Source: Albibacterium bauzanense
Lineage (GTDB): Bacteria; Bacteroidota; Bacteroidia; Sphingobacteriales; Sphingobacteriaceae
Direction: 5' to 3'
DNA: 64,000 nucleotides
Assembly (NCBI RefSeq): GCF_004339765.1
Contig: NZ_SMGO01000003.1
Location: 186,001 to 250,000, forward strand
Position numbers and translations under genes: made by a program. Position 1 is the stretch's first letter; each line of letters opens with the position of its first letter. The notes beneath the pieces were generated by a model, which searched no databases, was not told the DNA's origin, and saw only the letters and a list, made by a program, of their open reading frames with translations. Shown in pieces: positions 2,321-3,169 of this stretch.

Positions 2321-3169
2321 TTACTTGTTTTTATTTAAATAATAATTCAAAAGATTATGAATAGGCTCTCTAATGATAGTACCTATTTCGAAGTTATGGC
2401 CAATTGCCACATTTTCTAGTAATTCCTGATAGTCAAAGGCCACACTTCCTGTAAAACTCACCGTACTTATGTCGTGCCTTTCTCTTAATGGGATAAAATA
2501 CTTTTTAAATAAAAGATTAAATCCTTTAATAACCAAATTCCTGATATAAATATTCTCTCGGTTTTCAAATGCAAACTCCGAGAATGAACTTAAAAACAAC
2601 ACAGGATTCGACTGCCTGTAAACTTTATCTAATATTAACTTGGCATCAAGCGAATACTTTTCATCAAATTTAAGAACAAGATCCGGAGGCATTGTCTGAG
2701 TAATATAATCTTGCAAAATATTTCTACCCAGCCAATTAGCAGAACCCTCATCTGCTAATATATAACCTAAACCATAGTTGTTTTGTTCAAGCTTTTTTCC
2801 ATTATAATAGGCCGCATTAGAGCCGCTTCCAACAATCCCAACCAAGCCTCTATGATCTCCACAAGTGGCCAAAGCTGCAGCCTTTAAATCATGCCCTACA
2901 AAGACTTTCCCAAAGCGAAAGAACGAATTAAAAGCCTTTGATACAATAACCCGGTTCTCTCCCGAAGCGCCGGCTCCAAAAAAATAAATACGCTTTATCT
3001 TTTCGGCATAATTAATCAATGTATTATTCTTATTTAACAATTGTTCTATCCTGGCTGCATCATTATGATGAGGATTTATCCCCATCGTTTTAAATCCTGC
3101 AATCACTTTGCCCTTCTCAGCTAAACGCCAATCTGCCAAACGTGAACCACTATAAACAACTGCTATCAT
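2321..3169 (-). CDS. BadF/BadG/NAGK-family protein with degenerate phosphate-1 loop (probable pseudokinase)
   Basis: A 282-residue member of the BadF/BadG/BcrA/BcrD ATPase and N-acetylglucosamine kinase fold, colinear with the intact paralogue at 5377-6225. Shared landmarks are FFGAGA/YYGAGV, the GHDL helix with following alanines, the phosphate-2 motif GSGSN (GTGTN in the paralogue), and (A/G)DEGS. The N-terminal phosphate-1 loop is different: the paralogue has DGGSTKTNW whereas this protein has YSGSRLADW, losing the aspartate that binds metal and the TKT residues. It lies between pfkA (14 nt upstream) and gap (1 nt downstream). Kinase activity is doubtful; a sugar- or ligand-sensing or scaffolding role is inference. 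The rest of the frame is clean, so this is not ordinary gene decay. Confidence 0.82.

Follow-up and report, generated by a model that had tools for sequence, protein, structure and literature searches.

The gene that lies between pfkA and gap in Albibacterium bauzanense, here called X, encodes a protein that, judging from its orthologues, is strongly supported as a stable, clade-wide pseudokinase under selection, neither a sequencing error nor a relic. X is probably a non-catalytic descendant of a kinase of the NagK/MurK type, working as a receptor of hexose or hexosamine that would signal to a partner through closure. A sugar kinase homologue that has lost its ATP half in nature, throughout a clade and fixed beside core glycolytic genes, offers a candidate for metabolic regulation in Bacteroidota that can be put to the test; on the sensor reading, X would be a clear example within the NagK/MurK family of an enzyme that became a sensor and, if this is true, similarity-based annotation of X as a kinase would be an error.

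Gene X, its neighbours and its fold

In the window, which is the whole analysed stretch of 64,000 nucleotides, pfkA (4167-3184), X (3169-2321), and gap (2319-1324) form a single tight row on the - strand. The packing described in the initial annotation is borne out by the coordinates, with 14 nt between the end of pfkA (3184) and the start of X (3169), and 1 nt between the end of X (2321) and the start of gap (2319). The features of the locus are the following:

2321-3169, - strand: X, a 282-aa putative sugar-binding pseudokinase of NagK/MurK fold without an ATP loop (ORF, structure, orthologues)
3184-4167, - strand: pfkA, ATP-dependent 6-phosphofructokinase, operon copy (TIGR02482, 411.7 bits)
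1324-2319, - strand: gap, type I glyceraldehyde-3-phosphate dehydrogenase (TIGR01534, 452.7 bits)
5377-6225, - strand: NagK-type paralogue with an intact DGGSTKTNW loop (ORF, alignment)
4319-5014, + strand: Nudix and winged-helix regulator of NrtR/AraR type, divergent from pfkA (domain match)

PfkA and GAP matched their family models over the full length. The NagK-type paralogue (5377-6225, - strand), whose N-terminus reads MIIIADGGSTKTNW, has 33% identity with X over the whole length; a third member of the NagK family, Y, is located on a different contig of the host genome (3.08 Mb, 6 contigs). The Nudix/winged-helix gene is placed between the NagK paralogue and pfkA, and its product is a possible candidate regulator of the pfkA-X-gap locus. 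Downstream of this gene, an imperfect inverted repeat is present at 5170-5277 of the window, with arms of 46 nt that are 78% complementary and, in its right half, repeats at 11-nt spacing.

The AlphaFold2 model of X, built with 24 orthologues, has a mean pLDDT of 90.7 and a pTM of 0.86, and the sole stretch with pLDDT below 50 is the specificity loop (133-137). The closest solved structures are PG1100 (1zbs; TM 0.93, Z 35.0), MurK (8oqw; TM 0.91, Z 34.9), and K1058 (8oqk; TM 0.90, Z 34.6), and these TM and Z values place X in the glucokinase-type two-domain ASKHA fold of the Bacteroidota NagK/MurK clade; the whole fold is shared with MurK (8oqw), K1058 (8oqk), and the NagK-type kinases of Bacteroidota (1zbs, 1zxo). 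Tannerella forsythia MurK, K1058, and the NagK-type kinases show 28-34% identity with X and share with it the polar sugar contacts and the catalytic Asp. Unlike these kinases, X has a DxGxTK loop devoid of Asp, Thr, and Lys, and an eroded adenosine side. The kinase fold spans all 282 residues from residue 1 without an extra domain; the helix-turn-helix found at the N-terminus of ROK-type repressors is absent in the model of X, which starts with the kinase-fold strand 2-7. As for the library profiles, X is below the gathering cut-off (31.5) of Pfam PF01869 BcrAD_BadFG with 12.7 bits (E 0.09), as is the intact paralogue (20.7 bits), while 15 of 24 X orthologues match this profile at E <=0.01; both proteins are also below the cut-off (370) of NCBIfam NF046058 NagK_SO3507, with 27.7 bits for X and 23.3 for the paralogue.

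The ATP side and the sugar side of the cleft

Residue roles follow the available text of PMC10465942, which describes structures of MurK in complex with AMP-PCP and MurNAc, and the counts, in MurK numbering, refer to the 127 intact X orthologues. The elements of the cleft map to the window as follows:

3128-3154, - strand: YSGSRLADW, residues 6-14, former phosphate-1 loop (DSGSTKTHW in MurK; alignment)
2822-2830, - strand: GSG 114-116, phosphate-2 loop, where the active-type relatives read have GTG (alignment)
2888-2890, - strand: codon of Asp94 (MurK Asp95), catalytic and sugar-clamp residue, 127/127 (role from PMC10465942, available text)
2741-2752, - strand: DEGS 140-143, with the sugar contact Asp140 (MurK Asp141) and the conserved Glu141 (alignment)

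The phosphate-1 loop of X reads YSGSRLADW versus DGGSTKTNW in the paralogue, and this alteration, reported in the initial annotation, is a property of all the intact orthologues. The DxGxT motif of the NagK/MurK clade is lost, since position 6 is never Asp (Tyr in 104, Phe in 23) and position 10 is never Thr, being occupied by Arg (89), Asn (15), Lys (15), His (5), Tyr (2), or Asp (1); moreover, Lys is absent from position 11 in 127/127, and position 12 is Ala (117) or Ser (10) with no Thr. The alignment across Sphingobacteriaceae thus contains no X with an intact loop, and a sequencing error or a single-strain oddity is ruled out by the absence of the loop Asp from all 127. The erosion extends to the other ATP contacts: Gly145 is kept in 17/127 and Ala195 in 5/127. 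Tyr244 stacks on adenine in MurK (PMC10465942, available text); an aromatic residue is found at this position in 10 orthologues (Phe 7, Tyr 2, Trp 1), the others having mainly Ala (70), Ser (13), Gly (13), Asn (9), or Asp (8). The proposal that X is a pseudokinase is therefore well supported from sequence, with the loop Asp, Thr10, and Lys11 at 0/127 and several other ATP contacts eroded. In the NagK paralogues of the family, Asp6, Thr10, and Lys11 are all kept (31 of 31 read). Part of the phosphate site is retained in X, namely Gly8 (126/127), Ser9 (124/127), Gly115 (125/127), and Gly117 (127/127), so room for a phosphate may remain near the sugar O6; Thr116 is replaced by Ser in 126/127.

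On the sugar side, X carries the polar contacts and the catalytic Asp of the NagK/MurK clade (N32, G67, D95, N119, D141): Gly67, Asp95, and Asp141 are invariant (127/127), and Asn32 and Asn119 are found in 126 and 122 orthologues, respectively. Glu142, adjoining Asp141, is also present in 127/127 and does not appear in the contact list of the available text of PMC10465942. The conservation of the polar contacts makes sugar sensing by X, suggested in the initial annotation, likely. The non-polar and specificity positions 34, 69, 94, and 133 are variable across the orthologues.

The comparison of the two sides drew on 48 alignment columns that hardly vary among 52 active-type rows, where the ATP-only class comprised Asp6 and the listed contacts. 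Of the 12 ATP-only columns X has lost 7, and of the 6 listed columns of the sugar side none (Fisher p 0.038); among the 29 other invariant columns, 6 are lost; if Thr116 to Ser is not counted as a loss, the ATP-only figure becomes 6/12 and p 0.054. The contrast between the halves is clear by eye and, as the columns are few, statistically modest to borderline.

As regards the type of sugar, position 133 is aromatic in 125/127 X orthologues and position 134 is Gly in 127/127, where MurK has Ser-Pro. According to the available text of PMC10465942, the small Ser at MurK 133 helps to accommodate the lactyl group, and Gly at 134 is also found in human NagK. Gly134 together with an aromatic residue in place of the MurK Ser is a weak hint that the pocket may favour GlcNAc or a plain hexose over MurNAc; its weakness lies in the poor modelling of the loop and in the example of K1058, a MurNAc binder with different residues at these positions.

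Distribution, synteny and selection

Among 151 Sphingobacteriaceae genomes, an X orthologue was found in 128, intact in 127, and 23 have no X; the loci L033, L034, and L036, from repeat genomes, were left out of the orthologue counts, and only one of L035 and L055, which represent one gene, was used. Downstream of X, gap is present on the same strand in 128/128 loci, at a median distance of 6 nt (<=40 nt in 107, <=250 nt in 127), and pfkA immediately precedes X in 123/128, at a median of 3 nt (<=40 nt in 122); within this family, the pfkA-X-gap operon is thus conserved. The five X loci without an adjacent pfkA, all with gap, are those of G145, G110, G150, G008, and G066; the first three belong to genus g15 and their lack of an adjacent pfkA perhaps reflects one event. 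In G145 and G150 the gene order is NagK, a Nudix-type regulator (recognised by eye), X, gap, and pfkA is absent from the row. Of the 23 X-less genomes, 17 were examined: in 7 (four of g5, two of g8, and G022) pfkA adjoins gap and leaves no space for X, and in 10 the two genes are apart or were not both found. Since the joint tree places G022 within the X-bearing lineages (96/89), loss of X is likely there; G055 falls among X-bearing lineages in the GAP tree with modest support, and the position of g5 differs between the two trees.

The occurrence of X-gap without an adjacent pfkA in five genomes, three of them of g15, and of adjacent pfkA-gap in 7 of the 17 examined X-less genomes, leaves the regulation of PfkA by X, proposed in the initial annotation, without specific support. 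A further observation concerns the PfkA effector residue Arg211: at the equivalent position, both Arg and Lys are absent from 72 of 86 PfkAs adjoining X. One of these residues is present in the other 14/86, in 0/6 operon PfkAs without X, and in 12/12 other, unlinked PfkAs. The residue is mostly lost in operon PfkAs with or without X, so its loss appears to be neutral with regard to X-PfkA regulation, being evidence neither for nor against it.

Retention of X by chance, as a decaying relic, is very improbable. It could draw on the frameshift near residue 55-65 of the orthologue in the single-contig genome G112 (L093 / L230), and on the further divergence of the loop to YSDSDGAQW in G066; against it, 127 of 128 ORFs are intact, the polar sugar contacts are near-invariant, and dN/dS (YN00) is 0.02-0.09 in 14 close pairs, ratios that are rough since dS is >1 in several of them. 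These values come from 14 of 23 close pairs, many of the 9 valueless ones being saturated; pairs with >98.5% identity were skipped and the window pair L001/L004 was not included. On the ORFs and the dN/dS values, a pseudogene is ruled out.

Within the order sample, made up of Sphingobacteriaceae genomes only, no X gene has an E value above 4e-117; when 295 genomes of the class were sampled, the best outside-family match among the matches listed had an E value of 5.7e-90. A related-locus search that used a single protein as query yielded only 4 loci. A DSGSTK or ESGSTK loop is present in all 20 outside-family loci read, three of which (L169, L175, L178) adjoin pfkA, and it is possible, because of these three intact-loop loci, that X derived from a pfkA-linked active kinase. 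When the DNA pattern of the X loop was searched in a class sample of 395 genomes, it was found in 15/15 family genomes, all known to have X, and in 6/380 others; these six matches were attributed to chance, as their ORFs have only 13-39 aa and a reversed-pattern control also gave 6 genomes. In the family tree, X (100/100), Y (100/99), and NagK (100/100) form one group each; X and Y are placed as neighbours with 81/89, which is not firm, and the X stem is long (0.87). The open-licence PMC search gave no publication on the X gene or the operon among the matches listed, which does not imply absence from print.

Proposed sugar receptor and competing explanations

In the reading that we favour, X would have lost the phosphorylation of sugar by ATP and retained the binding of a hexose or hexosamine. 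The available text of PMC10465942 describes a strong closure of MurK solely upon MurNAc binding, with a dimer surface that increases from ~1160 to 1600-1700 A2; as the polar contacts needed for this closure are kept, sugar binding may likewise close the two domains of X, and the open or closed (or dimer) state would be read by a partner. Candidate partners are GapA, linked in 128/128 loci, PfkA, or a kinase of the same family, NagK or Y, through mixed dimers. Some findings count against a sensor: the catalytic Asp, invariant in 127/127, is also needed by a working enzyme (but it is a sugar clamp too); part of the phosphate site remains (Gly8, Ser9, Gly115, Gly117, Ser116); X is dispensable to 23 of 151 genomes, which lack it; losses also affect 6 of 29 other invariant columns; and positions 34, 69, 94, and 133 vary, and pLDDT is low in the specificity loop (133-137).

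A receptor of a sugar 6-phosphate, such as GlcNAc-6-P or fructose-6-P, that informs lower glycolysis is a tentative possibility: the product pocket of the kinase would be kept, with the polar sugar contacts, Gly117, and the hydroxyls of Ser9 and Ser116 near the transferred phosphate, the adenosine side is eroded, and Arg, Lys, Asn, or His at position 10 (124/127) would occupy the former place of the ATP phosphates; the hexosamine/hexose phosphate pool would then be reported to lower glycolysis, GapA being the most constant neighbour. It is quite unlikely that X has kept phosphotransferase activity through a remodelled donor site, using ATP differently or another donor with Asp95 as the base. 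The retention of Asp95 and Gly117 (127/127 each), Ser116 (126/127), and Ser9 (124/127), and the residues newly found at position 10, for the most part basic or polar (Arg 89, Lys 15, Asn 15, His 5), which could meet a phosphate, are in line with such an enzyme; nevertheless, Asp6, Thr10, and Lys11 are missing in 127/127, few orthologues have Gly145, Ala195, or an aromatic residue to stack on adenine, and the residue at position 10 is not fixed.

X could also be a non-catalytic subunit that forms mixed dimers with NagK or Y as a structural or allosteric partner, which is unlikely. MurK is dimeric (PMC10465942, available text), and the co-occurrence of X with the following gene is suggestive:

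L218, 6432-7301, - strand: Y, third NagK-family paralogue, with loop DSGSYKSDW and Val replacing the Glu of DEGS (genome G000, contig C2)

Asp6 is present in 38/38 Y sequences read and Thr10 in 4/38. Counted by hand over the 151 genomes, X and Y are both present in 122, X alone in 6, Y alone in 0, and neither in 23; G112, whose X is frameshifted, lacks Y, and the two groups are neighbours in the tree, albeit weakly (81/89). On the other side, the supported branches of the tree offer just 2 independent contrasts for co-loss (sign test p 0.5), which leave the tree test powerless and the X-Y link a lead, not a result; among the genomes with X and no Y (G008, G009, G084, G112, G128, G139), of which three are <90% complete, G139 is 99% complete, and Phe35 of the dimer interface is found in only 77/127 X.

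Functional analogies for the proposed sugar receptor are found in other systems, according to the available texts of the sources. The ROK family includes both sugar kinases and sugar-responsive regulators such as the repressors Mlc and NagC (PMC4856308); unlike these repressors, X has no DNA-binding domain. The Arabidopsis HXK1 S177A hexokinase is inactive and keeps glucose binding and sensing (PMC8256278), but it is a mutant of an active enzyme, whereas in X the loss of the ATP loop is natural and clade-wide. In Bacteroides AraR, of the NrtR family, an enzyme fold without activity binds sugar (PMC4666351); AraR, which has a Nudix fold and a DNA-binding domain, is unrelated to X, and a regulator of AraR type is encoded divergently next to pfkA at the X locus.

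As for the surroundings of Y, in 8 of 12 neighbourhoods this gene lies behind three large genes (~350, 1040, and 440 aa where complete), a row that was taken for an RND efflux set judging by size and order alone.
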